Below the pieces are notes generated by a model that worked only from the letters and a program-made list of their open reading frames with translations, was not told where the DNA came from and ran no database searches. Shown here piece by piece: positions 18,847 to 40,807 of a stretch of DNA of 64,000 bases (position 1 is its first letter; each line of letters starts with the position of its first letter). The position numbers and the translations under genes are program-made. Location of the stretch: positions 3,038,001 to 3,102,000 of the forward strand of contig NZ_CP166961.1 in the NCBI RefSeq assembly GCF_041410465.1, given 5' to 3'. Source of the DNA: Thalassotalea sp. 273M-4. Lineage in GTDB: Bacteria > Pseudomonadota > Gammaproteobacteria > Enterobacterales > Alteromonadaceae.

Positions 18847-18928
18847 AGTCCATAATCATCCTTATCTATGCATAACACCATATAAATAAAGAGATTTAAC
18901 ATTTACTGCATCCATAGAAATCCATAAC

Positions 18929-19025: not shown

Positions 19026-20252
19026 ATGGGTAAGTTAAATGCGAGAATGCTGGAATCGAAAGCATTAAAAGAGCCGGGCAAATACTCTGATGGGGATGGC
19101 TTGTATTATGTGGTGCCGAAGTCTACATCCGGACCAGGTAAGCCTTATTGGATGTTGCGATATACATCCAATAAAAAGCGCAAGGAAATGACACTCGCCA
19201 AAGCAAGTGATTTATCCTTAAAAGATGCTCGCCTAGAAGCTGCTTCAAAAATGAAGCAGCTTCGTGCCGGCGCTGATCCCTTAGTTACCAGAAAACGAAT
19301 AGATCAAGAAAGCATTAAAACCGTTAATGACCTATTCCAAGACTGGTACCCTACTCTTGAGAAAAGATTAAAGCACCCTAAAATCCCACAGCGTGTTTAT
19401 AGCAAAGATATTGCACCACACATCGGTGATATCAAATTAGATCAAGTTACCGCTAGGGATATTCGAGGCGTTATTAACAGCATTAATGATTCCGGAAGAC
19501 CTACTATTGCTAACGATGCTTTAGGTTACTGTAAGCAATTATTTAATCATGGTATTAAGCTTGATTTGCTTCCTCTTAACCCTGCCTCTGCATTTACCTT
19601 CAGAGATGCTGGCGGTATAGAAAAAAGCAAAGACAGAGCACTAACCGAAGCTGAATTGAAGCAATTCTTTCAAACAGCCAGAAAACATAGTGATAGTTTT
19701 AGCCGAGATAACTATTTAGCTTGTGCATTATTGGTTTGTTTAGGTGTAAGGAAATCAGAGCTTTGCGAGGCGAAATGGGATGAGTTTGAATTAGAGAAAG
19801 GGCTTTGGCACTTACCAGCAGAGCGTAGTAAAACAAATGTAGGCTTTACCATACCGCTAGCTCCAGAAGTGCTCAAATGGCTTGAGGAGCTTCAAGTAAG
19901 AGCCTTTGATTCAGAGTACGTATTTCCTAGCCGCAGAAGCAGTAAGACTCCTCATATGGCCGCAGATACACTAAACCGAGCCATTACGAAACTATTTGGC
20001 CATGAAGCCGGCAAAAAAAAGCAGCCACCCAACTTAATGGGTGACATGCCTCATTTTACAGTTCATGATTTGCGTCGTACTTGTCGTACCTTATTAGCCA
20101 AACAAGGTACGCCTGGCCATGTTGCTGAAAGGTGCCTTAATCACAAATTAAAAGGTGTAGAAGGCATTTATGATCAGTATGACTACTTAAATGAACGCAA
20201 AGAAGCTTTAACTTCTCTTGCTAAATCCACTTCTCAGATCATTAATACATAG
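19026..20252 (+). CDS. int: P4-type tyrosine integrase of the island
   Basis: This is a 408-aa site-specific recombinase. The N-terminal ~90 residues are a DUF4102-type arm-DNA-binding domain (LSDGDGLYY-like SDGDGLYYVV), then a core-binding domain and a C-terminal catalytic domain. Catalytic residues can be placed: Arg242 (GVRKSE), His347 and Arg350 (HDLRRT) and Tyr382 (IYDQYDY). It sits immediately inside attL and reads away from yicC, the usual place for an element-encoded integrase. TAGGA precedes the ATG. All key residues are present, so it is probably active. Confidence 0.94.
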   Translation: MGKLNARMLESKALKEPGKYSDGDGLYYVVPKSTSGPGKPYWMLRYTSNKKRKEMTLAKASDLSLKDARLEAASKMKQLRAGADPLVTRKRIDQESIKTVNDLFQDWYPTLEKRLKHPKIPQRVYSKDIAPHIGDIKLDQVTARDIRGVINSINDSGRPTIANDALGYCKQLFNHGIKLDLLPLNPASAFTFRDAGGIEKSKDRALTEAELKQFFQTARKHSDSFSRDNYLACALLVCLGVRKSELCEAKWDEFELEKGLWHLPAERSKTNVGFTIPLAPEVLKWLEELQVRAFDSEYVFPSRRSSKTPHMAADTLNRAITKLFGHEAGKKKQPPNLMGDMPHFTVHDLRRTCRTLLAKQGTPGHVAERCLNHKLKGVEGIYDQYDYLNERKEALTSLAKSTSQIINT

Positions 20253-20538: not shown

Positions 20539-20607
20539 TATTCAAATTCCTAAACATTGGCTATAAAGCCCTGTAACACAATCTGTATAACCAAGTAAAA
20601 TACGTCA

Positions 20608-20629
20608 TAGGGGCAGAAATTCGCCCCTA
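20608..20629. terminator. Hairpin between convergent small ORF and PLD gene
   Basis: Perfect 7-bp stem TAGGGGC / GCCCCTA with an 8-nt loop, between the 91-aa gene (+) and the end of the defence operon (-). There is no clear T-run on either side. Confidence 0.5.
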
Positions 20630-20650
20630 CTGATTTAAATAGATACGCTG

Positions 20651-22012
20651 TTAAATATAAATTTTGACACGGTAGCCTAACGCCCTTAAGGCTTTATTGG
20701 TTCTCCCGTTTCGGGGCGGTGTTGCCTCAGGTCTAGCCCATCCTACAATTTCAGCGATAGAGTTAATTCCATAGTGCTTTATCCTATATTCAGAAAGCTT
20801 ACCTACCTCATACAATCTTTGCCATAGATTTTGGTCTTTTCCACCGTAGAGAACGTAGTCAAGAACTTCAACTATCGATTGCCCTTTTGAATTTCTAAGT
20901 TTAAACAGTAAATGTGCAAATAAAGGCAAACGTTCATCTCTGCTCAAACTTAGAATTTCTGGCTTACCTAATACACTGGTAGGCATTTTAATTACGTGAT
21001 CCAACGTCGCATGAGTCGCAGAGCATAGAGTCAATAAATCGTTTTCATCTATGTTGTTAATGTTAGCTTTTGACAATATACGTCTAATATTGGGAGCATT
21101 TTCATACAACGTTATGCTTTCACTGGTTGGAGCATTTTCTGTCTCGCTCCACCATTTCATAGCAGCAATCAATGCCTTTTGAGGATCTGAATGATTTTTT
21201 TGAAAATACTCTTCAAATGGATAAGTGTTATCTGGCTGGCGCACTTGATTGTAGTAGTATGCATGTAAAAATTGATCCACCTGCCAAAATAAAGGAACAT
21301 CTTCATCCACCCATTTAGGCCTGTAATCATTGATTTGACTTGCAATATTTCGAATAAAAGATAATGTTTCGTTCCATTCTTCTCCGAATCGTTGTTTTTT
21401 CCTGTCTACTCTTTTTTTATCAGGGATGAAATTAACCCCTTCCCATTCATCAATGTGCCTTTTACGTTTTGCCTCATCATCAATTTCTTGCTTTTTCTTT
21501 TTATGTAAAGCAGCAAGCTCTGACTGCTCTTTAATAATTTCTTTAGTCAAAGGTAAAGACTTATCTAAGTCAAACAGCTCTTCAAAGAATGATTCAATTT
21601 GTAAATCCATACCCGAATCTTTCATCTCAATATCAGAAATAAAAACACCTGTTTCAATGTTTGAATACCAAGCCCTATCGGTTAGGTTAGCAGAACCGAT
21701 GTAAACACCATGCCCCTGCCACCAAATAATCTTTGAGTGAAGCATATCAGGTATTAACTTGCAGAAAATATTGTTGCGCTCATTCCTTAATAGCGTCTCT
21801 AGAAGACTAGGCGAAACAGGTACGGTATGATCGTAGCGCATCCAAATATCTAAACGTCGTTTGTTTTCTAAACAGTTCTTGATTAGCTTAGGAGTATCGC
21901 CTCTATCACTACCATAAGCTATTGCCGCCAGCACCCCGTCGACGGCAACTTCTTTAGATGGTAAGCAACTCTCCAAAAAATTATTATTGATTCCATTCGC
22001 AACTAATTTCAC
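20651..22012 (-). CDS. PLD-like nuclease-family protein, last gene of defence operon
   Basis: This is a 453-aa protein. Near the N-terminus is a phospholipase D-like motif with His92, Lys94, Gly106, Ser107 and Asn109 (HSK...GSAN). The Asp expected four residues after the Lys in the HxKxxxxD motif is not there: Gln99 and Gly100 occupy the site. A charged helical region follows (about residues 140-200). PLD-fold proteins in defence systems (for example DrmC of DISARM) can be nucleases. The GTG start directly follows the stop of the Res-like gene with no gap, so translation is coupled. Only one HKD-like motif is seen, so a dimer would be needed for activity. Confidence 0.8.
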   Translation of the reverse strand: MKLVANGINNNFLESCLPSKEVAVDGVLAAIAYGSDRGDTPKLIKNCLENKRRLDIWMRYDHTVPVSPSLLETLLRNERNNIFCKLIPDMLHSKIIWWQGHGVYIGSANLTDRAWYSNIETGVFISDIEMKDSGMDLQIESFFEELFDLDKSLPLTKEIIKEQSELAALHKKKKQEIDDEAKRKRHIDEWEGVNFIPDKKRVDRKKQRFGEEWNETLSFIRNIASQINDYRPKWVDEDVPLFWQVDQFLHAYYYNQVRQPDNTYPFEEYFQKNHSDPQKALIAAMKWWSETENAPTSESITLYENAPNIRRILSKANINNIDENDLLTLCSATHATLDHVIKMPTSVLGKPEILSLSRDERLPLFAHLLFKLRNSKGQSIVEVLDYVLYGGKDQNLWQRLYEVGKLSEYRIKHYGINSIAEIVGWARPEATPPRNGRTNKALRALGYRVKIYI

Positions 22013-25000
22013 TTACGCCACCATACCTCTGATTATTTTTTCGAGGTAAATATCTTTTCCATCTTCCATAAAGACAACATTTGCTTGCTCTAACTCGTCC
22101 TTCGTTTTATTAACGTTAATTAAGCTTGAAAAAGTTGTCGCTGATAAAATAAACGAGCTTAAATTAAGATTATCTTGCTCATAATTCTTAATCTCTTTGT
22201 ACAATCCAAATTTACCGCTATTTAAGTCGATTTGGCGTATTCCTTTTGGATCTATCAAGCTAAGCCACTGCTCACCAGTTTTATCGTCGACAAGCCATAG
22301 TAAAAAGTCTGGATAGAAATTCTCGGCGAGAGCAAAGCCTAAGCCTTTTGCTTTGGTATCAGCATTTCTTAATAAGTAGATGCTTTTATCACCAATAACT
22401 GACTGCCCTTTCGGTGTTGATAGGAACTCTTCTAGGTCCTTAACAAATTGAACTTCACTAGGTGCATCAAACGCCGTTGGACGCATCTTAAGCGGAACGG
22501 AAGCATTGTGCTCAATCGACATAAGCGGGTAGTAAAGATGCTTATCGAACGTAATAGCCACCATGCCCGGCGCGTCCCAGTCTTTGGCTTTCCCTAACTC
22601 ACCAGCAACAACTAGTTTCTGTAATTGTTCCAGGCGAGTTGAATAAGAAAAACCATCTTCAGTATCTTCAATTTCAAAGTGATAGACTTTAAGCATCCCT
22701 GGATCATCTTCATGAACATGGGTGACTTCAAAGAACTGGCCTTCATAAGCATTTTTGAGCGCTTTATAGAATCTATCGGTGTAGTCCTGAAGCAATCGGA
22801 TCATGATGTCTTCTTGCTTACGCACATCGGAGAACAACTTAATTTCTAACTCTTGTTCAGGTATTAACAATGTGTACCAAAAATTAGCGGCTGATGTTTT
22901 ACCCAAGCAAAATTCAGTCAATTTGGCTTTATCTAAACGTAGATTGCTCCAGCCACGTTGTAGTTTGAAATCTTGGATCGCCAGGTAAATTCGCTCAAAA
23001 TCAAATACAGCAATAACTTCTTCTTTTAGTTTTCTTGGAAGCCTGTCATGCGCAGGTGTTTTATCACCTGAATCGGTAGTGCTTAATGCCTCAATTTTTG
23101 GGTAGAGATCCAACTTAACATGTGGCTCTTTAATTTTACCTTCAAACGCTTCAGGTATTTCATACAAGCTTGGAAAATGAACTCGTTTAAAGCCTTTCTT
23201 TTGATTGTCTTTGTAGCCCTCTTTTAGTTTAAGTGTTTTTAACTTAGATTTAGGTAACGATGGCCGTGTCTCAAAATCAAGCTCTAATATTTCATCACTT
23301 GGTGTAATTCCTTCAGATTCTAGGTATTGCTTAAATGTCGCCATGTAATCAGCACGAACACCAAAAACATTCAGTGTCTCAAGCTTCTCTAAGTTTAACC
23401 CTTTAGGACGCTGTGCCGGAGTGCTTCGTTTAAGGGAATAGCCCTGTCCTTTTAAACGAACTCCGCGACCAAATAGCTGAATAATTTGCGAGCCTTCGCC
23501 TTTACCTATGTTCAACAAGCCCATTGTCGAAACACGCCAACTTGACCAGCCTTCAGTAAACTTTCGAGAACCAATAAGAATGTTTATTTTAGAGTCTTGA
23601 TTGTTAATGGTATTAAACAAAGTTTTTGCAAAATCATCTGACATATAATCAAATGACGGTTCTTCATCTAATGCTTTATAAAGCTTTGAAGAATCACCCA
23701 CATTAATTAATCCAAAAGGTTCTGATGTGCCCACACGCAGAGCCAGTTCACCTTTACTTCCTTTTAAGTTAACTACGGACAGTCGTTGTCCTGTATGGCT
23801 TGTATTAAATAAGCGCTCCATGATGTTTTGATAAATCTGGCTTTCATCTTTCCCCGTATCACCTAGAGGCAAGAATCGTTTATCAAAAATATTTCTGTCT
23901 TTAGTATCCAAAATACGCGAATTATTTTTTACGAGGTCTTTAATCCAAGCCTTGGCCTGATTTTCATTATTTAGAAACCAGGCTAAAAACTTAACAACCT
24001 GCTGAATGTCTGAGTCTTCTTTAGCAACAGAACTACCGACAAATACCCATAGCGGATTTTCAATATTGAATTCGGCGAGTTTTTCCTGATTTTTTGAGTA
24101 CAAATATTGCTGCTGATAGAAGCTTAACAAGCAAGCGGTAAAGTATTCATAGCGACGCTCTTCGTCTTTGTCGTCGCCTAAGTTAAGTATCAACGACTCT
24201 TTACCGTATCCATCTTCGTAGAAAAACTTATACGAATAATCAAACAACACTGACTTAGCATAGACTTCTCTTGTTGCCTGAATTCTGGCATCGCGCCGTT
24301 CACCCTCATCAAGCACCAGCTTAGCTTTTTGCTCATCATCTAACTTGTTTATTGCTGTTGTGTCGAATAGCATTTTGGCTTTTTTCTTTTGAATATCAAG
24401 TTCAACGGCATCCGCAGTTTTTCCATCACTTACTGCTTGTCCAAATGTAGCAGAATATTCAAAAGCAAAGCCAGTTCGAGTAATTGCATCACGCCGCTTC
24501 ATCCAAGCACCAGCAGCAGTACCGGTACCTTTGTGGCCTTCATCAATCAAAACTAAGTTATTGCCTTCAAACGCTTCAACGGCGACAGTTTTATCACCCA
24601 TATCATCGGCAAGCTTATTAATGTCAATAATCTCGATAGTACCTTTGAATGGTGTTATGCCGCTTTTATCAAAAAGACGAATATGGTCAAAGCCTGAGTC
24701 ATGTAACTCTTTAAAATGCTGTGCCGATAGTCGTTCGTCGGGAGTTAGTAAGATAATTTTATCAGGATAAACATGAGTATTGCCGTTTTGAAAGTAGTGC
24801 AAATACTGCAAAATATTCACATGCAGTAATAAAGTTTTCCCTGAACCAGTAGCATTCCAGTAAGCAAGTTTGTTTAACTCATCTAACACATAAGTTTTGA
24901 AATGGTCTGCTGGTTTCTGCTCACCACAATATTTGGTTAGCTCTGCATTTAAGCCATCAAGTAATTGCTGCTTGTTGTTGAAGTACCAATCTAAATAGAT

Positions 25001-25354
25001 TTCGGTAAACAGTAACGACAAGTATTGGAAATACTTCATATTCATTACTGTTTCTTCTATTCTATTGCGTTGTTCAGTGATTTGTTGCCAATGAGCGACG
25101 ATATTCATGTCATATCGACGCAAATCGTCAATATCAACTAACTCACTCTCAAATAAGTTATTGCTAATCTCATGAAAAAAGTGAGTTTGTCCATCGTCAT
25201 GAATACCTTCAAAACGATCTTCACCTAACCGCGTTTTTAAATCTTGTAATGTTTCCCCTTTTAAAAAGCGGAACATAAAGCGGTTTAAGACTAACTGTTG
25301 ATGAAAGCTTAGTTTTTTCTTAGTTTGCTTTTTGGTTGCCTTTCCAACTGCCAT
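22013..25354 (-). CDS. Type III Res-like DEAD/DEAH helicase-nuclease
   Basis: This is a 1113-aa SF2 helicase. Walker A is ATGSGKT at residues 168-174. The DEAD-box position reads DEGH at 271-274. A later motif, QLFGRGVRLKGQG, corresponds to helicase motif VI. Near the C-terminus Asp1016 (YPDFLLW) and Asp1035-x-Lys1037 (IDPKG) form a PD-(D/E)xK-type nuclease motif as in type III Res subunits. It is longer than the usual ~970 aa. It lies 13 bp after the Mod-like gene and is directly followed by the PLD gene. It probably translocates on and cuts unmodified DNA with the methylase partner. Confidence 0.88.
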   Translation of the reverse strand: MAVGKATKKQTKKKLSFHQQLVLNRFMFRFLKGETLQDLKTRLGEDRFEGIHDDGQTHFFHEISNNLFESELVDIDDLRRYDMNIVAHWQQITEQRNRIEETVMNMKYFQYLSLLFTEIYLDWYFNNKQQLLDGLNAELTKYCGEQKPADHFKTYVLDELNKLAYWNATGSGKTLLLHVNILQYLHYFQNGNTHVYPDKIILLTPDERLSAQHFKELHDSGFDHIRLFDKSGITPFKGTIEIIDINKLADDMGDKTVAVEAFEGNNLVLIDEGHKGTGTAAGAWMKRRDAITRTGFAFEYSATFGQAVSDGKTADAVELDIQKKKAKMLFDTTAINKLDDEQKAKLVLDEGERRDARIQATREVYAKSVLFDYSYKFFYEDGYGKESLILNLGDDKDEERRYEYFTACLLSFYQQQYLYSKNQEKLAEFNIENPLWVFVGSSVAKEDSDIQQVVKFLAWFLNNENQAKAWIKDLVKNNSRILDTKDRNIFDKRFLPLGDTGKDESQIYQNIMERLFNTSHTGQRLSVVNLKGSKGELALRVGTSEPFGLINVGDSSKLYKALDEEPSFDYMSDDFAKTLFNTINNQDSKINILIGSRKFTEGWSSWRVSTMGLLNIGKGEGSQIIQLFGRGVRLKGQGYSLKRSTPAQRPKGLNLEKLETLNVFGVRADYMATFKQYLESEGITPSDEILELDFETRPSLPKSKLKTLKLKEGYKDNQKKGFKRVHFPSLYEIPEAFEGKIKEPHVKLDLYPKIEALSTTDSGDKTPAHDRLPRKLKEEVIAVFDFERIYLAIQDFKLQRGWSNLRLDKAKLTEFCLGKTSAANFWYTLLIPEQELEIKLFSDVRKQEDIMIRLLQDYTDRFYKALKNAYEGQFFEVTHVHEDDPGMLKVYHFEIEDTEDGFSYSTRLEQLQKLVVAGELGKAKDWDAPGMVAITFDKHLYYPLMSIEHNASVPLKMRPTAFDAPSEVQFVKDLEEFLSTPKGQSVIGDKSIYLLRNADTKAKGLGFALAENFYPDFLLWLVDDKTGEQWLSLIDPKGIRQIDLNSGKFGLYKEIKNYEQDNLNLSSFILSATTFSSLINVNKTKDELEQANVVFMEDGKDIYLEKIIRGMVA

Positions 25355-25367
25355 GTTTTTTTACTCC

Positions 25368-28300
25368 TTATGCTAACTCATCAGGAGCAAACATTAGCTC
25401 AAGAAACTCAGGCTCAATTTGGCGAAGCTTTAACGTACGAGTAACTTCTCCCTCATCGCTTGTAAACGCGGTTGGTAAGTTGTGGTCACCATTTACGTAG
25501 ATGACATCAAAGGTTTTCTCTTTGGCAAACAAATCAAAACGATTGGCAAACTTAGTGAAATCGTCATAACCAATTTTTTCGCAGTCGCGCCATAAAACAA
25601 GCGCCTTTTCTCCACTTGGTAGATCACCTTCAACGCGTACGTAGCCCCGCTCAATATTTGACTCAACAGTTTTCAGGTGCAAACCAATCAAGTAGTTGAA
25701 GGTTTCAACTAAATCGATATTTCTCTCTTCAAAAGCACCCGCAGAATCCACTGCAATTTTCATTTTATAATCAAACGGTTTTTTGAAATCATCAGTACTT
25801 AATAACGAACCTTTGCTTTCGGTTTCCAACATGTAGTTGAGTAAGTAATCGGATTTTGCTTGCTCGGGTATTGAGTCGAATAAATCGCCTGTAGTTTGTG
25901 GTTTTCTGAGTTCTAAGTTATTCAGCGTGTCTTCGTAGCTTTCTAGATTTAAGTATTTAAAAACTACTTTTTTATTTGTTTTCCTTAGTTCTAACGCCTT
26001 ACCATTTTTCCAACTACCAGATAAGTAACTTTTTTTAATTCTAGGAATTAAGACGTTATCAAAATAACTACCTTGCTCAATAAGAAAGTAAGAAATATCT
26101 TTATTGCGTTCATAATTAAAATCTATTGTAGCTGCAGCCGTAGTACCTGAACCACCAAAGAAATCTAAAATGACAGATTCATCATCCGCTATTTGATCCA
26201 ATATTTTAGCAATCAAAGCAGGTGGTTTAGGATTGTCAATTAAGCCTTTTTGACCAAACATTGCTTCAAGCTTCGGCTCTCCATCAGCATATTGCCTAAT
26301 CACAGAGGTTGAAATAACTGATTCGACTTGATGTAAAAAGTACTTAATTTGAGGGATTTTACCTTCACCTTTAAACTTTATTCTGGAATTTTTCATATGC
26401 ATTTCGAAAGATGGTCTTTTTCCAATAGGATACCTAGGAAATGCCCAGCCAGCCCTTGGTGCCACGCCCGTTTCACCTGTAAGAGGATTCTCTACAGAAT
26501 AAAAGCGATAGTTCTCAGAATCAGGATCTTTTGTTGTATCCGCCTGTTTTCCGGCTGGCATAGAAGGCTCAACTTCCCTAAATAACCAGATTTTGGCGTT
26601 GCGCTCTTTTGCGTTTTTTTGATCAATAAATTTGCCTAAAGCATCTCTATATTCCACAAATTTATATGGGTAAAGCCCCTTCCAAGGATCTGTTTTCTGA
26701 GCCTCTTCTTTTGATAAACCTTGTGCGACAGCTTCCTCTATATGCTCATTTCTATGAGCACTATATAAATTTTTAATGGCTAACTCTATTGCTTCTATTT
26801 CAGGAAAAGCTTTATTAAGTTCGTCTAGGAGGTTAGTGACTTCTTTGTAACCCTCTCTTTGAACTCTAAATTTAGATTTATCTCTAAGGATTTCGTTTTT
26901 ATTTTTTGCAAAAACTTCAATATATTCGTGATTAGTAGAATATGCTGTTGCATTATTACTAACAGTATCTCGTGCCCATATAATTTCTTCTATTCGATTC
27001 TTGTTTCCAAAGGCCAAATTTAAGATACCCTCTAAATTATGCCGCTCACTTTCATTAATACTTACGAAAATCGCACCTTTTTCTTCTAATAAAAGTTTAG
27101 ATTGCATTAATCTGTCATACATAAATGAGCACCAACTTGATGACTTAAATGAATCTTTGTAAATAAAACCGTCACTTCCTGTATTATAAGGAGGGTCAAT
27201 ATAAACCTGTCCTACAGTCTCATTAAAGCAGTTTTGAGCAAGCCTCAACCCTTGGTAGTTATCAGATTTTATACACAACGGAATTTGCCTATTTTGAGGC
27301 AAACTAATTTGTGACAGTATTCTTTCTTTTATTTCGGAAGAATAATTTTTTGTATCAATAATAAGTTGCTTGTTCTGTTTTAAGAAATTAGCATCAATAT
27401 TTGTGTTTTCTATAAACCCTAAGGAAGCCCACTCTTCTATTTGCTCCTTAGATAACAAGGCCTCATAAAATGAGTCATCTATAAATTGTAAATTGATACA
27501 ATAATTACTTTCGACAACAAACTTTTTCTTTGTCCAAAGTTTCTTTTGGAAATTTTCCAGTTGGGCTAAAAACCTAACAATATCAGTTGCAATAGAACGA
27601 AGGCATTGAATCATTCTTAGCTGTTTTTCAATATCTGAAAACACTTCGGCATTCTGTACATTATCTAGATTCATTACTTCATTTTTAATATAGAAGTCGA
27701 GTTCGTTAGATAAAAACCCACCTAAGTCTTTGTGAATGAAATAGTCAGCGGTGTTACGTTGCGTATAGGTAGTAAGATGCTTTTCTAGCAAAGTACGATT
27801 TGGATTTTTTTCAGTTGGTTCGCGTTTCGTCACATCAACCCAATCACTTTGAATGTTATTATTCGACAAAATCGCATCTAGCGCCTGGCTCACTAATGCT
27901 TCTTGCTTAGTACCTTTTTTAACTGCCTTGTATTCAAACTGAATGATTAATTCATCTTTATCACCAGAGCTATCAACAACGACAGGCAATACTTCTTCTT
28001 CGTAATCTAGGCCATCATCGTCATACTTAATGCGCGTATGCTCTTCGACTAACACGAAACGGCGGTCTGCATCATTGTCCTTTCTATTGTCTTTCGCAGT
28101 GTCTGCCGCAAGCAGCTTAAAGGTTACTTTGCGACCGTCTTCAAGTTTGAAAGAGTAATTAGAAAAATTCTCGCCGCTTTTTATGTAATACTGGTCTTTA
28201 TTAGCCCAGTGAAGCATCACTTCTTCACCAGCGTAAGGGATAGCGTAAGTGTCACCTTTATAACGACGCTTACTGACGAAATCTCCACTGTCATAATAAC

Positions 28301-28655
28301 GAGAGAAGAAGGTTAACAAATGAGTAAATACCGCATTTTCATGCTCGTTGGCACCTTGCGATGAAGCTGCGATTTGTACTCGAAGGTCTTTTACTTTTGG
28401 GCTATCATCTGGATTAAACCCAGCACCTTCTGCATTTTTAATAGCTTCTGCCAATTGGCGTTCCAATTCTTCTTTATTGGCATTACCCGCCGAAGCCAAC
28501 GCATCACTAATTTTTTTCATTAGTGTGTTCTCAAGGTAGTTGTTAATCTCATCCGCTTTGGCATTCAAGATACGATAAATACCGAAATCTAATTCCGGTT
28601 TATCGATTTGGAAAATTTCCTTTAGTTTTTTAACTAAGTCGTTATATTTGCTCAT
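25368..28655 (-). CDS. Type III Mod-like adenine DNA methyltransferase, unusually long
   Basis: This is a 1095-aa protein. The methylation motif IV DPPYNTG is at residues 487-493. The SAM-binding motif I, DFFGGSGTT, starts at 831. That order is the beta class typical of type III Mod enzymes, which methylate N6 of adenine. Ordinary Mod proteins are about 650 aa; here ~480 residues precede the catalytic core, with coiled, charged and beta-rich parts. The region between the two motifs should hold target recognition. The gene is flanked by the PIN gene (14 bp) and the Res-like gene (13 bp) in one operon. It should protect host DNA and may help target foreign DNA. Confidence 0.9.
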   Translation of the reverse strand: MSKYNDLVKKLKEIFQIDKPELDFGIYRILNAKADEINNYLENTLMKKISDALASAGNANKEELERQLAEAIKNAEGAGFNPDDSPKVKDLRVQIAASSQGANEHENAVFTHLLTFFSRYYDSGDFVSKRRYKGDTYAIPYAGEEVMLHWANKDQYYIKSGENFSNYSFKLEDGRKVTFKLLAADTAKDNRKDNDADRRFVLVEEHTRIKYDDDGLDYEEEVLPVVVDSSGDKDELIIQFEYKAVKKGTKQEALVSQALDAILSNNNIQSDWVDVTKREPTEKNPNRTLLEKHLTTYTQRNTADYFIHKDLGGFLSNELDFYIKNEVMNLDNVQNAEVFSDIEKQLRMIQCLRSIATDIVRFLAQLENFQKKLWTKKKFVVESNYCINLQFIDDSFYEALLSKEQIEEWASLGFIENTNIDANFLKQNKQLIIDTKNYSSEIKERILSQISLPQNRQIPLCIKSDNYQGLRLAQNCFNETVGQVYIDPPYNTGSDGFIYKDSFKSSSWCSFMYDRLMQSKLLLEEKGAIFVSINESERHNLEGILNLAFGNKNRIEEIIWARDTVSNNATAYSTNHEYIEVFAKNKNEILRDKSKFRVQREGYKEVTNLLDELNKAFPEIEAIELAIKNLYSAHRNEHIEEAVAQGLSKEEAQKTDPWKGLYPYKFVEYRDALGKFIDQKNAKERNAKIWLFREVEPSMPAGKQADTTKDPDSENYRFYSVENPLTGETGVAPRAGWAFPRYPIGKRPSFEMHMKNSRIKFKGEGKIPQIKYFLHQVESVISTSVIRQYADGEPKLEAMFGQKGLIDNPKPPALIAKILDQIADDESVILDFFGGSGTTAAATIDFNYERNKDISYFLIEQGSYFDNVLIPRIKKSYLSGSWKNGKALELRKTNKKVVFKYLNLESYEDTLNNLELRKPQTTGDLFDSIPEQAKSDYLLNYMLETESKGSLLSTDDFKKPFDYKMKIAVDSAGAFEERNIDLVETFNYLIGLHLKTVESNIERGYVRVEGDLPSGEKALVLWRDCEKIGYDDFTKFANRFDLFAKEKTFDVIYVNGDHNLPTAFTSDEGEVTRTLKLRQIEPEFLELMFAPDELA

Positions 28656-28669
28656 TATTAGTCTCTTAT

Positions 28670-29143
28670 TTAATGTCTATCACAACAGTCTGGACATAAC
28701 TGAGTTACTGTCACACCTAATTGCTGCATTAGTTCTTTCTGCTCAATCCAGTCGCTATCTGTCGCATTTACTACATCTGCATTTGCGACTACTGCAGTTG
28801 CTAACAGTTTTCTATCGGATCGATCAAATTCATTATCGGGTAATTCTTCAAACGATTTGGCTTCATCGTCACAGGGAGTTATATTGACCAAGTTGATGTT
28901 GCTGCTCGGATCATATTGATTGTCATAAAGATACTTAAAAAACTTATCACCTAAACCAGGTGAGCCTTTATAACTACAATGAATTTCATACTCATCCATA
29001 ATCAAGCCTGTATGATCAAGAGCTATAGTAAGATTCTTATAGGTTTCTATAAATTCAATACACGATAATTCACAATCGATAGATGCTTGATTACTTTTTC
29101 CATTTGCTACTACTAATACATTAGTATCTATCACCTTAGGCAT
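28670..29143 (-). CDS. PIN-domain nuclease embedded in the defence operon
   Basis: This is a 157-aa protein. PIN-type acidic residues are visible: Asp6 (VIDTNV), Glu51 or Glu53 (MDEYEI), Asp110 (DRSDRKLL) and Asp129/Asp131 near the C-terminus (NATDSDW). PIN domains are metal-dependent RNases or DNases and common toxins. The C-terminus has CPDCC, a possible metal site. The start overlaps the end of the upstream AAA ATPase gene by 8 bp, so the two are translationally coupled and probably one functional unit. The pair sits between the SNF2 helicase and the Mod-like gene. Its target is not known. Confidence 0.8.
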   Translation of the reverse strand: MPKVIDTNVLVVANGKSNQASIDCELSCIEFIETYKNLTIALDHTGLIMDEYEIHCSYKGSPGLGDKFFKYLYDNQYDPSSNINLVNITPCDDEAKSFEELPDNEFDRSDRKLLATAVVANADVVNATDSDWIEQKELMQQLGVTVTQLCPDCCDRH

Positions 29144-30527
29144 TTTCGGTTTGACTCTCTTGAGCTGCTTTTCGTTTTAGTAATGCAGCTTTGCGAGTTG
29201 CTGATATTTCTTCCATTTCATTTCCGAAAAAGTTATCAGGCCAATTATGAATTGCACCAAAATCATCAAGTTCAAGTTGCTTGTAACTTGCTTTACCTCG
29301 TTTAGTTGAAAAGAAATACAGTTTCAAATCACTACTTTCAGCTTTATCTTCTGCTACTCGCCGCTGTAGTCTTCTAATAAAATGCTCACTATGGCTTTCA
29401 ACTATGACTTGAATATTTCTCGTTTGGGATACTGTCAAAATCAAATCAGCTAATTTACTCTGAACAGCTGGGTGTAAGTGAATTTCAGGTTGCTCTAATA
29501 ACACAGTTGAGCCTTCAGCTACATAATAGAGCAACACTATTACTGGTAATATTTGCGAAACTCCAAAGCCGACATCAGTAATTGCTACTTCAGCACTACC
29601 GTTTTCTTTCTGAACATAAGTTTTAAAGTGGTTTGAATTAGGAGCTATTTCCTCAACCCGAAAATTATGGATAAGTCCCAGCTCTTTCAACCAATATGCT
29701 ACCATTTCTTGAAAAGTTTTATAACGTGTACCTTTAGTTAAGTTTCGTTTTTCGCCTTTTAAGGTTGCTGCAAGAATCGCATTGATAGTGAGCTCCCCTT
29801 GCTGACCAACGTCAGAAGGACTTGTTCCTGACCATTGGTAACTTCTTTTTGGAAAGCTCCTTAACGGACCAAGGTAATAAATATTATCCATACACTCTTC
29901 CAAGGCGCTTTCAAACTGACTTAAAAAGTCAGCATTTTGATAATAAGTTTTTGCCTGGTCAGGAAATAAGTAATATTTAGTTGCTTGAGGAAGCTTCCAG
30001 TTTCGCCCTAATGTTCGTATAAATCTAAATTTATTTTTATCATCTGGAACTTCAGCTTTCAGTTCAAATTCATTAGATTTATTTTCTTTAGGGATTATAG
30101 AAAAGTTTGATCCGGCAAATTTATAGCTTAAATTTTTAACTTCAAGGAGTTTACCTTTCAGTCCTACATTGGAAGACAGTTCAAGATCTTTACCATTAAA
30201 TAAAACGCTTCTGGAGCTTTCCTCTATATTCTGAATTTTTAATTCATCGACTAGCTGCCAAGAAAGAGTGAAAGATAAATTTCGACTCTCTTCATGTTGA
30301 GAAACCACATCATGATAAGTACCTAGGTCAGCTAGCTTTTCTTCACTACCGAAGTCTAGTGCAATACCACGATCCGAGTTGTTTTTAGTTTGCTTCAACA
30401 TCAACAGCATATGTATTAAACTGCTTTTACCCGAACTATTCGTACCAAAAATTCCGGTTACCCTACCAATATCTAAATCTAATTTTTCCCATACTTTAAA
30501 GTTTTCTAATATTATTCTTTTTAGCAT
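29136..30527 (-). CDS. AAA ATPase, DUF3696 type, paired with PIN nuclease
   Basis: This is a 463-aa RecF/OLD-like ABC-type ATPase. The Walker A motif GTNSSGKS is at residues 28-35. The signature-like GFGVSQILPV, Walker B LLEQPEIHLHP and the switch region IVESHSEHFIRRL follow in order. The C-terminal AIHNWPDNFFGNEM is characteristic of DUF3696 ATPases. No TOPRIM nuclease domain is attached; the separate PIN protein downstream may supply the nuclease. It lies 9 bp after the SNF2 helicase gene. Such ATPases often sense phage activity and release or activate an effector; that role here is inference. Confidence 0.85.
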   Translation of the reverse strand: MLKRIILENFKVWEKLDLDIGRVTGIFGTNSSGKSSLIHMLLMLKQTKNNSDRGIALDFGSEEKLADLGTYHDVVSQHEESRNLSFTLSWQLVDELKIQNIEESSRSVLFNGKDLELSSNVGLKGKLLEVKNLSYKFAGSNFSIIPKENKSNEFELKAEVPDDKNKFRFIRTLGRNWKLPQATKYYLFPDQAKTYYQNADFLSQFESALEECMDNIYYLGPLRSFPKRSYQWSGTSPSDVGQQGELTINAILAATLKGEKRNLTKGTRYKTFQEMVAYWLKELGLIHNFRVEEIAPNSNHFKTYVQKENGSAEVAITDVGFGVSQILPVIVLLYYVAEGSTVLLEQPEIHLHPAVQSKLADLILTVSQTRNIQVIVESHSEHFIRRLQRRVAEDKAESSDLKLYFFSTKRGKASYKQLELDDFGAIHNWPDNFFGNEMEEISATRKAALLKRKAAQESQTENA

Positions 30528-30536
30528 GCTCTTCTC

Positions 30537-33416
30537 CTAAACGACTGCCCAACGAATCGTAAACAATTCTTCTATTTCAGTTTTTTGTTTCATCCGAGCT
30601 TCTAATGCCGCTATAAGCTCGTCCCGTTTTTCAGCGATTTCATCTTCAACATCCCATATTTCAGCTCGTTGCTTTCGTTGTTTACGTTCTAAATCTTTCA
30701 ACTGTTTTTGCATCTGTTGTTGCGCTTCAACAAAAACTGCGTGACGGCTTTCTCGTTTCAGCGATTTGATTTGGTTCTTGGTGTCAACAAGTGCTTGCTC
30801 GGCAGATAAAATTTTATCGTCCGCCCACTTCTCAAGTTTATCTCTCTCGTCTTGAAAGTACTTATTATTTAAGTCCATTGCTTCAGCAAGTTTTACATCT
30901 AGTTGTCTGGTCTGGTTCTCTAGCAAACGCTCAGGAACAGAAACACTTACCTCTTCAACACTTTTACTACCAACGTTAAACAGCTTTTTACAAGCCTCGC
31001 CATCAATGAGTTGACCTCTATCCGTCATACCTGTGAAAACAAGATACTCTTCTGTTTGAAAAGCTTCTATGCGCAATAAGTTTAGTGATAGCCAACCAGA
31101 CTGACCTTGCAGTTGCTCTGCCACAGAAACTTTCGTTTGATGGCTTTGATAGTCAAATATAACCTCTTTATGTGGCGTAGCTTGTTTTCTCGCCGATTCA
31201 ATTACATGCTCGCCTAGTGGATGAGTAATTCGGTACTTATGTGCGTGTTCTTCAATCACCTGTGCCGTTTCAGCTTCGGCCTGCTTTCCTTTACGAATAA
31301 GTTGATATTTTCCTTTCGCGAAACCGGAAATTTTATCGGTTAACGTGAAGCTGTAGTTATTCTCATTAAAAAGTGCATGATTGCGAAGTTGATGCACTGT
31401 TACAGCCCAAAACCATCTAGAAACTTTGTCTAAGCGTTCCTTGGCTTGATCTAATTTAATTCTAAGTAGGTCGTGAATATCTTCGTCAAAATGCTCTAAC
31501 AACGCCTCTTGTGTTTGTTGCATTTTTGAACTGATATCGTCTTCTAGCTCTTTTTGCAACGAGGTAAAAGCTTGCTCAATTTCTTGTGGTGATCGGCATT
31601 CTTGATAGATTTGCTGAATACGTTTTTCAAAGTCTACGCCACTTTCTAAACTACCGAGCACAGAATCAGAAGCGCCAAAAACACCGTCAAAAAGAGTGAA
31701 TTTATCAGTCAGTAATTCAAGTACTCTTTGGTCAGCCAAGTTGCGCTGGTTCATGAAGTTAATCACAACCACATCAAACTTTTGACCGTATCGATGACAA
31801 CGCCCAATACGCTGTTCAACCCTTTGTGGGTTCCAAGGCAAATCGTAGTTTATCAGTAATGAACAAAACTGTAAGTTAACACCTTCAGCTGCCGCTTCTG
31901 TGGCGATCATTATTTCGGCATGGTCTTTAAAGTGGTCAATAAGAGCCGTTCTTCTATCAACCTGAGGCGATCCGGTTACCTTATCTGAACCTTCATTTTT
32001 TATTTTCCACTGCTTATAAATTTCAGTTGCTTCCGGATGTGTATTTGAGCCGCTAAAAGTAACGATTTTGTCTTTAAAGCCATGTTGAGCTAAGAATGCC
32101 GCTAAGTAACTTTGAGTTCTTTTAGACTCAGTAAAAATAATGACCTTTTGGGCAGCTCCCATTTCGGCCATTTGGATAAAGCCTAAATCGAGTGCCTTTA
32201 ATAATGCCTTGGCTTTTTCGTCGTTCTGAATACCTTCAGCCTGCTTTATAAAGCCTTCTAGCTCCTGAATTTCAAGCGATAACCTTTTTTCATCAATAAC
32301 TTCTTTAGCCGCTTCGTCGTCAAGCAAATCATCTATATCGTCCTCATCAAGATAATCTGTTTCTAGATCATCATCTTCGATAATAGTGCGGAGTAAATCG
32401 TCATCATGTTCTACCTTTTGGTGTTTTAGTTGCTCCAGACGACTTTTCATCACTTGCAGCGTATTTAGAACGGCAAACGAACTTGAGGCGAGTAGCTTTC
32501 TTAGAATTAAGCCTGTGAGATGTTTTTGTCTTCTAGGTAGCGCATAGCTATCATCCTTTTCTAAAAACGCAGAAACGGCATCATACAAAGCTTGCTCTTG
32601 GTCAGATGGAGTAAAGGGAACAGTAATAGCTTTGCGCTGGGTATATTTCACATACTCAAGCACTTGTTTGCGCAGTGTACGCTTTACAAAGCTTGCAAGT
32701 CGCTCCTTTAGTTCTTGCTGATCACTATCGCCCTGCATGAATTGTTTACGAAACGCTTTGTCGTCGCCAAAAATATGTTCATCGATCAACGTCGACATAC
32801 CATACAGTTCCATTAAAGAATTTTGCAATGGCGTTGCTGTTAACAATAGTTTCTTTCGACCATGAAGCGCTCTTTTAAGCGCCTGTCCCATCTTATTGCT
32901 TTCACGATGTGCATTACGTAGTTTATGCGCTTCATCTATAACAACCAGATCCCACATTTCACCAACGAGCCTATCTTCAAGCCTAGCAGCATAGTGATAA
33001 GACATAATCACTACCTGCTTGTTGTTTAATGGATTGTAGACACCTGATTTCTGTAACTGGTTAAACGTTTTAGCGTCTAGTATTTGAGAAGGGAGATTAA
33101 ATTTTTCCAATAATTCTTGCGCCCATTGGCGGCGCAAAGATGCAGGGCAAATAATAAGAAGCTTACGCTTTCTTTCCGCCCAGTACTGGCAGAGAACAAG
33201 CCCTGCTTCAATAGTTTTCCCTAATCCCACTTCGTCAGCCAACACAACACCTTGATTCAGTGGGTTATCTAATGCAAACAAAGCCGCCTCAATCTGATGA
33301 GGATTAAGATCTACACTAGCATCAAACAATGACTGAGATAGCCTGTCTACACCATTATTGCTATGTAGAATTGATAGTTCATGTGCAAAATATTTCGCGT
33401 GGTAATCAGTAATCAA
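30537..33416 (-). CDS. SNF2-type helicase of the defence operon
   Basis: This is a 959-aa SWI2/SNF2-family ATPase. Motif I is DEVGLGKT at residues 61-68 and DEAH is at 161-164. The C-terminal helicase domain ends with QRIGRCHRYGQ, typical of SNF2/RapA-like proteins. A ~250-residue charged, coiled C-terminal region is rich in Glu, Lys and Gln. The TTG start overlaps the stop of the small HTH gene (TTGA), so expression is coupled. It resembles DrmD-like helicases of class 1 DISARM and helicases in related systems. Probably it moves along or remodels DNA during recognition of invaders. Confidence 0.87.
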   Translation of the reverse strand: MITDYHAKYFAHELSILHSNNGVDRLSQSLFDASVDLNPHQIEAALFALDNPLNQGVVLADEVGLGKTIEAGLVLCQYWAERKRKLLIICPASLRRQWAQELLEKFNLPSQILDAKTFNQLQKSGVYNPLNNKQVVIMSYHYAARLEDRLVGEMWDLVVIDEAHKLRNAHRESNKMGQALKRALHGRKKLLLTATPLQNSLMELYGMSTLIDEHIFGDDKAFRKQFMQGDSDQQELKERLASFVKRTLRKQVLEYVKYTQRKAITVPFTPSDQEQALYDAVSAFLEKDDSYALPRRQKHLTGLILRKLLASSSFAVLNTLQVMKSRLEQLKHQKVEHDDDLLRTIIEDDDLETDYLDEDDIDDLLDDEAAKEVIDEKRLSLEIQELEGFIKQAEGIQNDEKAKALLKALDLGFIQMAEMGAAQKVIIFTESKRTQSYLAAFLAQHGFKDKIVTFSGSNTHPEATEIYKQWKIKNEGSDKVTGSPQVDRRTALIDHFKDHAEIMIATEAAAEGVNLQFCSLLINYDLPWNPQRVEQRIGRCHRYGQKFDVVVINFMNQRNLADQRVLELLTDKFTLFDGVFGASDSVLGSLESGVDFEKRIQQIYQECRSPQEIEQAFTSLQKELEDDISSKMQQTQEALLEHFDEDIHDLLRIKLDQAKERLDKVSRWFWAVTVHQLRNHALFNENNYSFTLTDKISGFAKGKYQLIRKGKQAEAETAQVIEEHAHKYRITHPLGEHVIESARKQATPHKEVIFDYQSHQTKVSVAEQLQGQSGWLSLNLLRIEAFQTEEYLVFTGMTDRGQLIDGEACKKLFNVGSKSVEEVSVSVPERLLENQTRQLDVKLAEAMDLNNKYFQDERDKLEKWADDKILSAEQALVDTKNQIKSLKRESRHAVFVEAQQQMQKQLKDLERKQRKQRAEIWDVEDEIAEKRDELIAALEARMKQKTEIEELFTIRWAVV

Positions 33417-33595
33417 TTAACGTTGCTCCCTTTGCTTTCTTCAATCCATTGCTCAATATCTTCGCGTTTAAAACGCCAGCTACCACCAACTTTAAAACCA
33501 GGCAACTTACCTTCGCTAGCCAAGCGGTAAGCTGTCTTTTCTGCTAACTTTAAATACGCCGCTACTTCTTTCAAGGTTAATATTGGGTCTGTCAT
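33413..33595 (-). CDS. Small HTH (MerR/excisionase-like) protein, first gene of defence operon
   Basis: This is a 60-aa protein with a winged helix of the helix_turn_helix_17 or excisionase type: LTLKEVAAYLKLAEKTAYRL followed by LPGFKVGGSWRF. Such small proteins often start defence operons or act as excisionases. It overlaps the SNF2 helicase gene by 4 bp. It could repress the operon promoter (upstream of 33595) or bind DNA at the element ends. No strong ribosome binding site is seen. Confidence 0.8.
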   Translation of the reverse strand: MTDPILTLKEVAAYLKLAEKTAYRLASEGKLPGFKVGGSWRFKREDIEQWIEESKGSNVN

Positions 33596-33785: not shown

Positions 33786-33965
33786 TTAGCCTCTGCCTTC
33801 TATCTTTACCATTATCCAATCTTCAACTTCACTTGCCACCCAAACAACACAATTTGAGCTTAATTTCACCTGCTTTGGAAAACGATCTTCCTTCATAAAT
33901 TTGTAAATTGCTGAACGACTTAAGCTGGTTAAATTCTTAACTTCATCTAATTTAATAAAACGCAT
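33786..33965 (-). CDS. AlpA-family regulatory protein
   Basis: This 59-aa protein was read directly from the minus strand: start MRFIKLDEVKNLTSLSRSAI, stop TAA at 33786. The arrangement of a helix-turn-helix followed by FPKQVKL and a C-terminal EVEDWI matches AlpA (Phage_AlpA) proteins of CP4/P4-type elements. AlpA activates the integrase or excision genes in E. coli CP4-57. It lies between the defence operon and radC, which runs the other way, and may control island genes. About 190 bp between it and the HTH gene hold no recognisable gene. Confidence 0.8.
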   Translation of the reverse strand: MRFIKLDEVKNLTSLSRSAIYKFMKEDRFPKQVKLSSNCVVWVASEVEDWIMVKIEGRG

Positions 33966-34097: not shown

Positions 34098-34574
34098 ATG
34101 CACAGTTCATTAGCTGAGACATACAAGTCTCATCGTCCATTGCATGAGTTTCGTGTACTAGAAAAAGCCGCCAAGATCATCGAACGCTGTTATTTAAAAG
34201 GTCAGGCGTTTACCAGCTCTAGCGCCACCCAAGATTTTTTGATGTGTAAGCTAGGCACATATAAGCAAGAAGTGTTTTCTGTCATGCTGCTCGATAGCCA
34301 GCATCACCTGATCGAATACAAAGAGTTATTTTTCGGGACCATAGATGCGGCAACCGTTTACCCTCGCGAAGTAGTGCGAGCGGTATTTGAAGCCAATGCA
34401 GCTGCTGTAGTATTTGCCCACAACCACCCTTCTGGCATTTCTGAGTCGTCTATTGCCGATAAAAATATTACTGAGCGCCTAGTAAAGGCGCTTGGTTTAA
34501 TTGATGTGCGGGTGCTGGACCATATTATCGTGGCAGAAACACCGGTGTCGTTTGCAGAAAAAGGATTACTGTGA
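34098..34574 (+). CDS. radC: RadC-like JAB-domain protein, short form
   Basis: This is a 158-aa protein of the RadC JAB/MPN family. The metal motif is His108-x-His110-P-S-G with Asp121 (HNHPSG...AD). The chromosomal RadC (~224 aa) has an N-terminal helix-hairpin-helix part that is missing here, as is usual for copies on islands (for example YfjY of CP4-57). The strong AAGGAG box gives the start. Despite the name, a DNA repair role is not established; the family is widespread on mobile elements. DUF2787 follows after 3 bp. Confidence 0.88.
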   Translation: MHSSLAETYKSHRPLHEFRVLEKAAKIIERCYLKGQAFTSSSATQDFLMCKLGTYKQEVFSVMLLDSQHHLIEYKELFFGTIDAATVYPREVVRAVFEANAAAVVFAHNHPSGISESSIADKNITERLVKALGLIDVRVLDHIIVAETPVSFAEKGLL

Positions 34575-35129: not shown

Positions 35130-35690
35130 ATGGCCGAAGTTCAAGCGATCACGCAATTTGAAAAAGTCCATCTGATAAGCCATCTGCTGTCGATTCGTTG
35201 CAGTGAACAAATGGCGGACATTTGGAACATTGGTTTAAACCTGGCTCTTCGAATATCGGATTTACTATCGATTAAGTTTTCCGACATACAAGGCGATAGG
35301 CTTATCCTTAAAGAAGGCAAGACCGGCAAAGTTGCCAATATCCAACTTAACAACAAAGCGCTGAAAACCATCAGTAAAATCAAAGAGAAGCACCCTTCGC
35401 ATATTTACCTGTTTCAATCCCATCGAAGCCAAGGTACGGACAACCAAAATCCTAAGCCGCTAAGTAGACGCGCAGTAACTAAAGCATTCGCACAAGTTGG
35501 TGAAGAACTTGGCTTATCACTTGGTACCCACAGTATGCGTAAGACCCGTGGTTATCACTTGTATAAAAACACCAAAGACATCGCCAGAGTGATGAAGATG
35601 CTCAGGCACAGCTCTGAGGCCGTCACGCTCAGATACATCGGCATGACCCAAGCCGAAATCGATGCTGACTTTGTTGAACTCGAAATCTAA
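35130..35690 (+). CDS. Small tyrosine recombinase (catalytic domain only)
   Basis: This is a 186-aa protein consisting of the catalytic domain of phage-integrase family recombinases, similar in size to FimB/FimE. Catalytic residues are Arg41 (ALRISDLL), a candidate Lys64, His134 and Arg137 (HSMRKT), His160 (LRHSS) and Tyr169 (TLRYIG). There is no arm-binding or core-binding domain. It lies downstream of inverted repeats that could be its target. It may invert or excise a local segment or act with the main integrase. AAGGA lies 9 bp upstream of the ATG. Confidence 0.83.
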   Translation: MAEVQAITQFEKVHLISHLLSIRCSEQMADIWNIGLNLALRISDLLSIKFSDIQGDRLILKEGKTGKVANIQLNNKALKTISKIKEKHPSHIYLFQSHRSQGTDNQNPKPLSRRAVTKAFAQVGEELGLSLGTHSMRKTRGYHLYKNTKDIARVMKMLRHSSEAVTLRYIGMTQAEIDADFVELEI

Positions 35691-36219: not shown

Positions 36220-36882
36220 TTACTTTCGACTGGCTCCATACATATTCCCCTCTCCTCCATATTTTTTTTGTCGTAACTTTGCAAAGTAACTGATCCTAAA
36301 GAAGAATGCTTTTAACTGAGCAATATCCTCAGGTGATCTTTTACCGATTATATATACGCCTTTTTCAGGAAAATGCACTAGCTGAGTCACATCACATAGT
36401 TTCTTATTCAGTGCACTTGCGCACGCTTTTCGACATCTAGCGGCCATATTTCCTGATACTCGCTTGAAGTCTCCTAATGTTCTATAAGCCTGTTTATTAA
36501 GTAGAATAGCTAGATGGTAATGTGGCTTAAGCCCTTTGGAACTATAACCCCACTCCTTCACCCATATAACTCTAACTTTTGTTCGGTGAACCCTAACACC
36601 AGCTTTAATGCGGCGCTGCTCATCAGCATAAATCTGCGCTTTAATTGAGCTCTCAAATCGAGATATGAATTTGCTATCTGTAGCATCGAAGTCGCTACAA
36701 AACCTTAGATCGAGTCGAAAAGCAAAAGTTTGCTTATAGTCACTCAAAGCGTAGTCAATTGTTTTCTTCATTGCCTTTAAGCAACCGACAAGTAGAGGAC
36801 CTTTTTCGATATTTACCGGTAGCCCTTCAAATAAAGGTGTATGGTGAAGAGAATAATGTTTTGGTAAGTTTGTACTGCTCAT
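36220..36882 (-). CDS. Inovirus-type Gp2 / YagK-YfjJ C-terminal domain protein
   Basis: This is a ~220-aa protein. The segments VRVIWVKEWGYSSKGLKPHYHLAILLNKQAY (quoted here only by position, about residues 105-135 from the chosen start) contain the HYH motif of rolling-circle-like or Gp2-type replication proteins. YfjJ of CP4-57 belongs to the same family. I choose ATG at 36882, preceded by TAAGG; a longer frame to 36957 has no such signal. It may take part in replication of the excised element. It is convergent with the LRAT-like gene. Confidence 0.78.
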   Translation of the reverse strand: MSSTNLPKHYSLHHTPLFEGLPVNIEKGPLLVGCLKAMKKTIDYALSDYKQTFAFRLDLRFCSDFDATDSKFISRFESSIKAQIYADEQRRIKAGVRVHRTKVRVIWVKEWGYSSKGLKPHYHLAILLNKQAYRTLGDFKRVSGNMAARCRKACASALNKKLCDVTQLVHFPEKGVYIIGKRSPEDIAQLKAFFFRISYFAKLRQKKYGGEGNMYGASRK

Positions 36883-37158
36883 GATAAACCTTATGTTGTG
36901 AATTACATAAGGTATTGCGAAGCGATAAAAATTAATTGAAAAGCAGCTAACTATCAAAGGTAGCAGTGTCTACTATTTGCTTATGTATATTACTACATAC
37001 CTACAATATCTGATTCTACATACACCTGGCTAATGCACGAAAATAGCGGTGAAGACTTATTAATATTTGTATTTTTGAACTCTGTTAATGAGCTAAGAGT
37101 GCATGGGAACAACTGAAGATCAATCAAAGTAATATGACATGGATTAACTGCAAAACAT

Positions 37159-40800: not shown

Positions 40801-40807
40801 ATATCCA

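Follow-up and report, generated by a model that had tools for sequence, protein, structure and literature searches.

Murray et al. 2021 described type III restriction-modification systems that make N4-methylcytosine (m4C), among them Eco86II and BspHIV, which carry a helicase-like ATPase gene 5' of mod (PMC8259958). A helicase-like gene lies near mod and res in more than 500 genomes, Eco86II of Escherichia coli NCTC86 both methylates and cuts at GAGCC, and Kangiella aquimarina DSM 16071 is listed as the holder of Kaq16071II, with the motif GGACT (PMC8259958). Here we analyze a related seven-gene locus in Thalassotalea sp. 273M-4, within a stretch of 64,000 nucleotides (the window; contig NZ_CP166961.1, positions 3,038,001 to 3,102,000) to which all positions below refer. 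We consider it probable that the locus is an Eco86II-group type III system on an integrative island, with the ATPase-nuclease pair HEC-03 in the slot between the SNF2 helicase and the methyltransferase Mod and a phospholipase D (PLD)-family protein at the end, in which restriction would act first and HEC-03 would stand guard.

The seven open reading frames (ORFs) all lie on the minus strand between 20651 and 33595, as an earlier sequence-only reading had proposed, and are separated by -4, 9, -8, 14, 13 and 0 bp, also as claimed. The first gene encodes an excisionase-type helix-turn-helix (HTH) protein of 60 residues (33413-33595), which passes the cut-off of 80 bits for NCBIfam NF047737, antiphage_MADS1, with 87.4 bits (TIGR01764 excise, 56.9 bits), and overlaps by 4 bp the gene for a 959-residue SNF2-family helicase (30537-33416). 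An ATPase of 463 residues (29136-30527) and a PIN-domain nuclease of 157 residues (28670-29143) follow, then a long type III Mod of 1095 residues (25368-28655; PADLOC MTase_III, 1245 bits), a type III helicase-nuclease Res of 1113 residues (22013-25354; PADLOC REase_III, 1961 bits) and the PLD-family nuclease of 453 residues (20651-22012). Annotation used the PADLOC, Pfam and NCBIfam libraries, and residues were scored by homologue alignment. The domain calls of the sequence-only reading held up: SNF2-rel_dom, AAA_15, N6_N4_Mtase, ResIII and PLDc_2 all pass their Pfam cut-offs, and the PIN domain, which falls under its own (13.9 versus 23.6 bits), is matched by PADLOC HEC-03A at 204 bits. That reading was also right that this is a defence operon other than canonical two-gene type III restriction.

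SNF2, Mod and Res form a recurrent type III core

Using a profile of 20 Mods, we took the best 80 of 391 loci, which come from named records across many phyla; gene order was called with custom hidden Markov models, and at least 4 kb of flank up- or downstream of Mod was required. Of the 69 loci whose upstream flank was long enough, 59 have SNF2 ahead of Mod on the same strand, and in three more it sits elsewhere or fails the overlap filter (L026 and L027 read Mod-Res-SNF2, L086 reads SNF2-Mod). Res lies downstream of Mod in 62 of the 66 loci with at least 4 kb downstream under the strict filter, and two of the four misses (L039 and L044) do carry Res once overlap is allowed. An SNF2-anchored search matched 20 of 369 genomes of the class at 1e-120, the window's included; Mod is the next gene along in 16 of the 19 other loci, and of the three misses two are cut off where the contig ends and in the third SNF2 is short. 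The order SNF2-Mod-Res recurs in distant genomes, beyond chance. These loci fall into two lineages, one with a long Mod and a long Res (ResL) and one with a short Mod (~550 residues) and a short Res.

All three core proteins retain their motifs. The SNF2 protein, whose best solved-structure match is RapA, scores 694 bits against NF038318 (DrmD_b), under the cut-off of 950, and its Walker A, DEAH, TATP and motif VI are kept in 119-120 of 120 homologues. Among 120 Mod homologues, DPPY, D831, G835 and S836 are kept in all and G837 in 119. Res retains Walker A, DEGH, motif VI and PD-(D/E)xK with few exceptions among 71 ResL proteins; at the nuclease residues picked out by the sequence-only reading, D1016 is present in 71 of 71, residue 1035 is D in 67 proteins and E in the other 4, and residue 1037 is K in 64 and H in the remaining 7. 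The seven proteins with H at the catalytic lysine are possibly inactive or altered nucleases.

Like the Eco86II group, the window operon combines a beta-class Mod (DPPY and an FxGxG-type motif), a Res with superfamily 2 helicase motifs and PD-(D/E)xK, and, 5' of mod, a gene for a helicase-like ATPase, HEC-03 sitting between SNF2 and mod. The group is further defined by methylating one strand at an asymmetric motif (m4C for Eco86II), with cuts made nearby. The type III core here is SNF2, long Mod and Res, and this three-gene core is already published as Eco86II-type. The NCTC86 locus (L204) has the SNF2-Mod-Res layout, and K. aquimarina (L017) has the nearest backbone among the loci compared; because strain and layout agree, we infer that these loci encode Eco86II and the published K. 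aquimarina enzyme.

At least 80% of the locus of E. coli strain A3 (tRNA-Leu side) is held by 145 of 5426 E. coli genomes. A figure of 997 of 5426 was discarded as a measure of prevalence: of 40 records sampled, 30 were brief fragments of RapA and another 2 covered 8%. In E. coli B19695 (H67), the RefSeq gene under the SNF2 match is named 'mads1', so the MADS1 label is possibly overextended and may reach operons other than MADS.

A control Mod family expected to lack SNF2, PDLC03641, is present in 24 of 200 genomes, and an SNF2-type helicase lies upstream of Mod in 8 of the 20 loci fetched. An SNF2 partner is therefore common among type III systems, which counts against its being special to the Eco86II group. 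The two control helicases that were scanned match PADLOC C3a139, 'HKD+Snf2', and in some type III systems the SNF2 partner seems to be fused to a PLD-type domain. At L185 (5048-17679) and L191, such an HKD+Snf2-type protein precedes a canonical Mod-Res; a 250-residue ORF lies between it and Mod at L185, and GajA-GajB stands behind Res.

The whole methyltransferase core of Mod is exchanged between constant arms

The best solved match of Mod, by sequence and by fold, is EcoP15I Mod. Identity profiles and co-variation divide the window Mod into a constant N-terminal arm (residues 1-380, 27516-28655; also delimited by a structural model), an exchangeable core (residues ~381-900, 25956-27515) and a constant C-terminal arm (residues ~901-1095, 25368-25955). 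Identity drops near residues 380 and 900, the first drop being seen over 254 pairs. The core comprises the whole methyltransferase, in which DPPY at 487 and the FxGxG-type motif at 833 flank the recognition region.

Seven E. coli strains, hand-picked from the listing, show the exchange at close range. Their SNF2 proteins are 98.7-100% identical, Res 97.9-100%, the Mod N-arm 98.6-100% and the last 130 Mod columns 96-100%, and the same strains carry five core types with 28-42% protein identity and DNA identity down to ~30-77%. Strains with different cores are A3 and NCTC86 (one type), PRO_A-2576-6M-A_ESBL, TUM13936, 88COLEC and GF66.1 (one type) and LSN03-016011/A. Whole Mods from three of the seven strains share 67-69% identity, with 5-60% in the bins between residues 400 and 950. 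The NCTC86-type core occurs in 32 of the 5426 E. coli genomes. Between the window and K. aquimarina, the Mod arms are 84-100% identical outside the boundary bins (62% in the 351-400 bin) and Res is 96% identical, with 17-36% in the alignable bins of the core. Over the 213 residues aligned, the two cores are 31% identical; the window core shares 27% identity with the NCTC86 core.

The same pattern extends across the long Mods. In a set of 199, which is no census of pairs because the searches behind it favour N-terminal similarity, both arms are at least 80% identical in 1130 pairs; the cores of these pairs are below 50% in 805 and at least 80% in 114. Identities of the N- and C-arms correlate with each other (r 0.915) and poorly with the core (r 0.21 and 0.24). 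Across 57 loci with three full-length long-lineage proteins, the window's included, Res co-varies with the Mod N-arm (r 0.973) and C-arm (r 0.903) and much less with the core (r 0.354); 999 matrix permutations of whole SNF2, Mod and Res peak at 0.24-0.27. Some cores also cross between backbones: those of L075 and L066 are 61-66% identical to the cores of Mods with arms just 34-45% alike.

A model of Mod with moderate confidence (mean predicted local distance difference test score 69.7, predicted template modelling score 0.47) places a helical hairpin, a beta domain and a long helix (336-374) in the N-arm, with a strand starting at 378, so that the predicted fold appears to break near the first core boundary. 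The top eight matches in a fold search were type III Mods, EcoP15I first, and nothing firm was found for the N-arm; its sequence search gave one weak designed-protein match only.

As a control we compared the P1 Mod with three E. coli EcoP1-type alleles; P7 Mod, at 99.8% identity to P1, was of no use for this. Here residues ~1-200 (with DPPY, 96-98% identical around it) and 526 onward are constant, and ~205-525 are swapped, FxGxG included (37-51% around it), so that the control is less clean than one would expect from the modA literature. In seven pairs of long Mods both motifs lie in the swapped block, with 46-78% identity around DPPY and 40-53% around FxGxG. Since the EcoP1-type swap also takes the FxGxG half, what distinguishes long Mods is the extent of the exchange, with both motifs inside. 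Exchange of the whole core as a cassette is well supported by these comparisons.

Guest genes occupy the slots of the core

We defined a guest as a same-strand ORF of at least 90 residues between SNF2 and Mod (slot 1) or between Mod and Res. Guests occur in 34 of the 80 Mod-anchored and 16 of the 19 SNF2-anchored loci; together with genes just after Res they comprise 107 proteins in 57 clusters.

In the window, slot 1 holds HEC-03, a PADLOC candidate system whose name reads as Hma-embedded candidate. Its two proteins are adjacent: the AAA_15/OLD-ABC-type ATPase scores 683 bits against PADLOC HEC-03B (AAA_15 92 bits, DUF3696 38 bits, the AriA model just 102 bits), and its PIN partner, HEC-03A, has D6, E51, D107 and D110 in 15 of 15 homologues and D129 in 14 of 15. 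HEC-03 homologues occupy slot 1 at three further loci (L028, L031 and L109). Within the phylum, HEC-03B is found in 15 of 398 genomes, the window's included, with PIN beside the ATPase in 12 of the 14 others; four of these loci (L146-L149) show weak matches to SNF2 or Mod, of 39-192 bits. HEC-03 has no DNA match in E. coli.

The PLD protein is appended behind Res (PLDc_2 34.5 bits). Residues H92, K94, G106, S107 and N109 are kept in 120 of 120 homologues; where the HKD acid usually stands, most have K, Q or R. Searched strictly, 369 gammaproteobacterial genomes yielded the window's own copy only, and 122 of the 5426 E. coli genomes have a DNA match. In both E. coli genomes examined (L158:13874-15223 and L159), the PLD gene stands behind brxL of BREX, with an AbiE pair further along; on two plasmids it lies near IetAS-type (ATP-binding protein, S8 peptidase; our own name) or AbiE-type genes. 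At L019 and L022, which we regard as chimeras, the PLD is 61-75% identical to that of the window. A preprint reportedly treats defences embedded in immune systems, and the embedding idea may already be public elsewhere.

A guarded restriction system and its alternatives

In the reading we prefer, Mod would mark host DNA at one motif, and Mod-Res would cut unmarked DNA; these activities are predicted from motifs and fold here and by analogy with the E. coli relative, in which methylation and cutting were reported (PMC8259958). The Mod arms would dock to Res and possibly to SNF2, the methyltransferase core would be an interchangeable cassette that determines the motif and perhaps which base is methylated, and SNF2 may help in vivo, perhaps by remodelling bound DNA. 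The OLD-type ATPase would keep PIN in check and set it free once the restriction complex is blocked, so that the cell is arrested, and PLD may act as a further independent nuclease. It is by analogy that we infer a guard function for HEC-03: in BREX and related systems, OLD-ATPases paired with PIN are reported to serve as backup effectors (PMC12839542), and PrrC for EcoprrI and PARIS for Ocr follow a guard logic (PMC12707154). A broader reading, to which we lean a little less than evenly, takes the core as a chassis with three swap places, where a new Mod cassette would in one step give finished Res, SNF2 and Mod arms a new motif, perhaps with a change between m4C and N6-methyladenine (m6A), and the two slots would take ready-made guarding abortive modules. 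Sequence supports the exchange of the whole core well; a new motif, a new chemistry and guarding are what such a chassis might add.

Several findings weigh against our preferred reading. SNF2 is absent from 7 of the 69 Mod loci. At L019 and L022, SNF2 is 75-83% identical to that of the window and Mod and Res just 38-43%, so SNF2 is not tied to one Mod-Res. The extra helicase was unneeded for methylation and gave no peptides in the cutting fraction (PMC8259958). Slots are empty in 46 of the 80 Mod-anchored loci, some of these being interrupted by contig ends. None of the 14 other HEC-03 genomes has a close SNF2-Mod-Res in the stretch fetched, so guarding an Eco86II-type system is not HEC-03's only job. 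Finally, comparison of the core with EcoP1I Mod, an m6A enzyme, and with that of NCTC86, presumed to make m4C, does not reveal by sequence which base is methylated.

The serious rival to guarding is that HEC-03 and PLD are hitch-hikers, which use the operon's promoter and a safe landing site and do not sense restriction at all; we would put its chances somewhat below even. Such a view is favoured by the range of families from which guests come (20 of the 107 guests were scanned, with HEC-01AB, PDC-S02, PDC-S05, AbiD, HEC-06, SoFic, IetAS and NsnAB among the matches and 3 proteins without a match at 1e-15), and by the occurrence of HEC-03 away from the type III core. It sits less well with the placement of guests between core genes of one operon and with the make-up of the largest clusters, the HEC-01AB clusters of 13 and 9 proteins: these are ATPase-plus-effector pairs, a class with known guards, although sensing is not thereby proven.

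Another rival takes SNF2 as a habitual neighbour that plays no part in restriction. Its published dispensability for methylation, its absence from the cutting fraction and the loci that lack SNF2 point this way, but SNF2 and Res co-vary (r 0.686 across the 57 loci, 0.906 in the 40 nearest, where SNF2 versus core gives 0.276) and another type III Mod family has an SNF2-type helicase upstream in 8 of 20 loci; we regard the bystander explanation as rather unlikely.

The sequence-only reading had treated HTH, SNF2, ATPase, PIN, Mod, Res and PLD as a single system. Overlaps and gaps of no more than 14 bp suggest one transcript for all seven genes, but the recurrent unit has three genes, the ATPase-PIN pair and PLD each occur elsewhere without a close copy of it, and the slots carry varied guests or none, so that one joint seven-gene machine is very improbable. 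Recognition regions often evolve fast, but fast evolution in place of exchange is scarcely credible for Mod cores with DNA identity of ~30-77% between an N-arm at 98.6-100% and 130 C-terminal columns at 96-100%, with core-arm correlations of 0.21 and 0.24, and with cores 61-66% alike on arms 34-45% alike.

The operon lies on an integrative island

The 3' end of yicC (17983-18846; YicC domains) is the site of a ~22-kb integrase island that carries the operon and reads as an integrated mobile element. A tyrosine integrase (19026-20252, plus strand; Phage_integrase 82.8 bits, Arm-DNA-bind_3 60 bits) lies near one end, and a 27-nucleotide attachment-like direct repeat at the 3' end of yicC (18827-18853, plus strand) is 85% identical to one at the opposite end of the island (40782-40808, plus strand). 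In 2-kb bins, G+C is 0.344-0.389 over 20-34 kb and 0.363-0.431 over 34-42 kb, with flanks of 0.405-0.462 before 20 kb and 0.409-0.456 after 42 kb. Other island genes encode a RadC/JAB protein (34098-34574, plus strand; RadC 135.6 bits) and a YagK/YfjJ-domain protein (36220-36957, minus strand; YagK_YfjJ_C 141.5 bits), and a second, short ORF with a phage-integrase domain (35130-35690) is possibly a remnant. The host genome of 3.37 Mb has one Res match.

A small HTH-like ORF upstream of the operon (33786-33965, minus strand), presumably AlpA-like, has no NCBIfam match. After the PLD stop, a terminator-like hairpin of 9 pairs lies on the coding (minus) strand (20607-20630); the region holds 13 terminator-like sites versus 9.1 +- 3.4 in shuffles, so enrichment is not clear. 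Just outside the island, an ORF of 1957 residues (41472-47345) has an M60-like N-terminal domain and IMPa helical domains, and holds tandem DNA repeats of 18 and 216 nucleotides.

Relation to known systems

Our data point to an evolutionary rule by which one restriction backbone accepts very different methyltransferase cores whole, so that a single recombination event could alter recognition, and perhaps which base is methylated, with the cutting machinery unchanged. They would also carry the notion of embedded guards, known for PrrC and reported in BREX, over to this widespread group of three-gene type III systems, and HEC-03 in the window operon offers a pair of genes on which to test it. 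What the helicase does, a question that Murray et al. did not settle, can now be framed more easily, as among near relatives SNF2 tracks Res and the Mod arms and not the core. The suggestion that this might be an undescribed variant survives in part: the core is in print as Eco86II and BspHIV, and in the open-licence literature (bioRxiv not covered) we found no publication on guests in the Eco86II-type group or on exchange of Mod's whole core.

The likeness to Hma systems seen by the sequence-only reading did not stand: SNF2 scores 693-694 bits for DrmD (DrmD_b) and 192 for HmaA, the ATPase is HEC-03B, and none of the six long operon proteins matches DUF499 (HmaC). Its remark that the DrmB (DUF1998) of DISARM is lacking was borne out. 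The operon shares with DISARM a DrmD-related SNF2 helicase and a PLD protein, but DrmD_b (694 of 950 bits) and DrmC (31 of 133 bits) fall below their NCBIfam cut-offs, the six long proteins have no DUF1998 match, DrmB is not among the best 25 PADLOC matches of each protein, and DrmA is never the best model. MADS and BREX were likewise considered as the identity of the operon and rejected. For MADS, the HTH model is matched, the MADS3 ATPase reaches 41 of 420 bits, and no other MADS model is listed for the seven proteins. BREX and Hma loci share the pairing of an OLD-ATPase with PIN or another nuclease inside core loci (PMC12839542); the window operon differs in having neither a DUF499 match nor a BREX core gene as best match for any of its proteins.

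EcoprrI-PrrC and PARIS (AriAB) likewise place an ATPase-linked nuclease beside or inside a restriction locus (PMC12707154), whereas the window effector is a PIN nuclease and its ATPase matches AriA at just 102 bits. The PADLOC candidate HEC-03 is shared in full, with ATPase then PIN at high scores; here, the pair lies inside a type III operon. With the recognition-domain exchange of modA, the window-type Mod shares a central block swapped between conserved ends; in modA, DPPY and FxGxG are reported to lie in the conserved ends (PMC3311624), whereas both lie in the swapped block of the window-type Mod. Exchange of a central block is thus known, and the long Mods extend it to a complete enzyme between two outer arms. 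With the Eco86II/BspHIV group the operon shares the helicase-like ATPase gene 5' of mod, followed by mod and a res with PD-(D/E)xK; it departs from that group in the HEC-03 pair inserted after SNF2, the appended PLD gene and the leading HTH gene.

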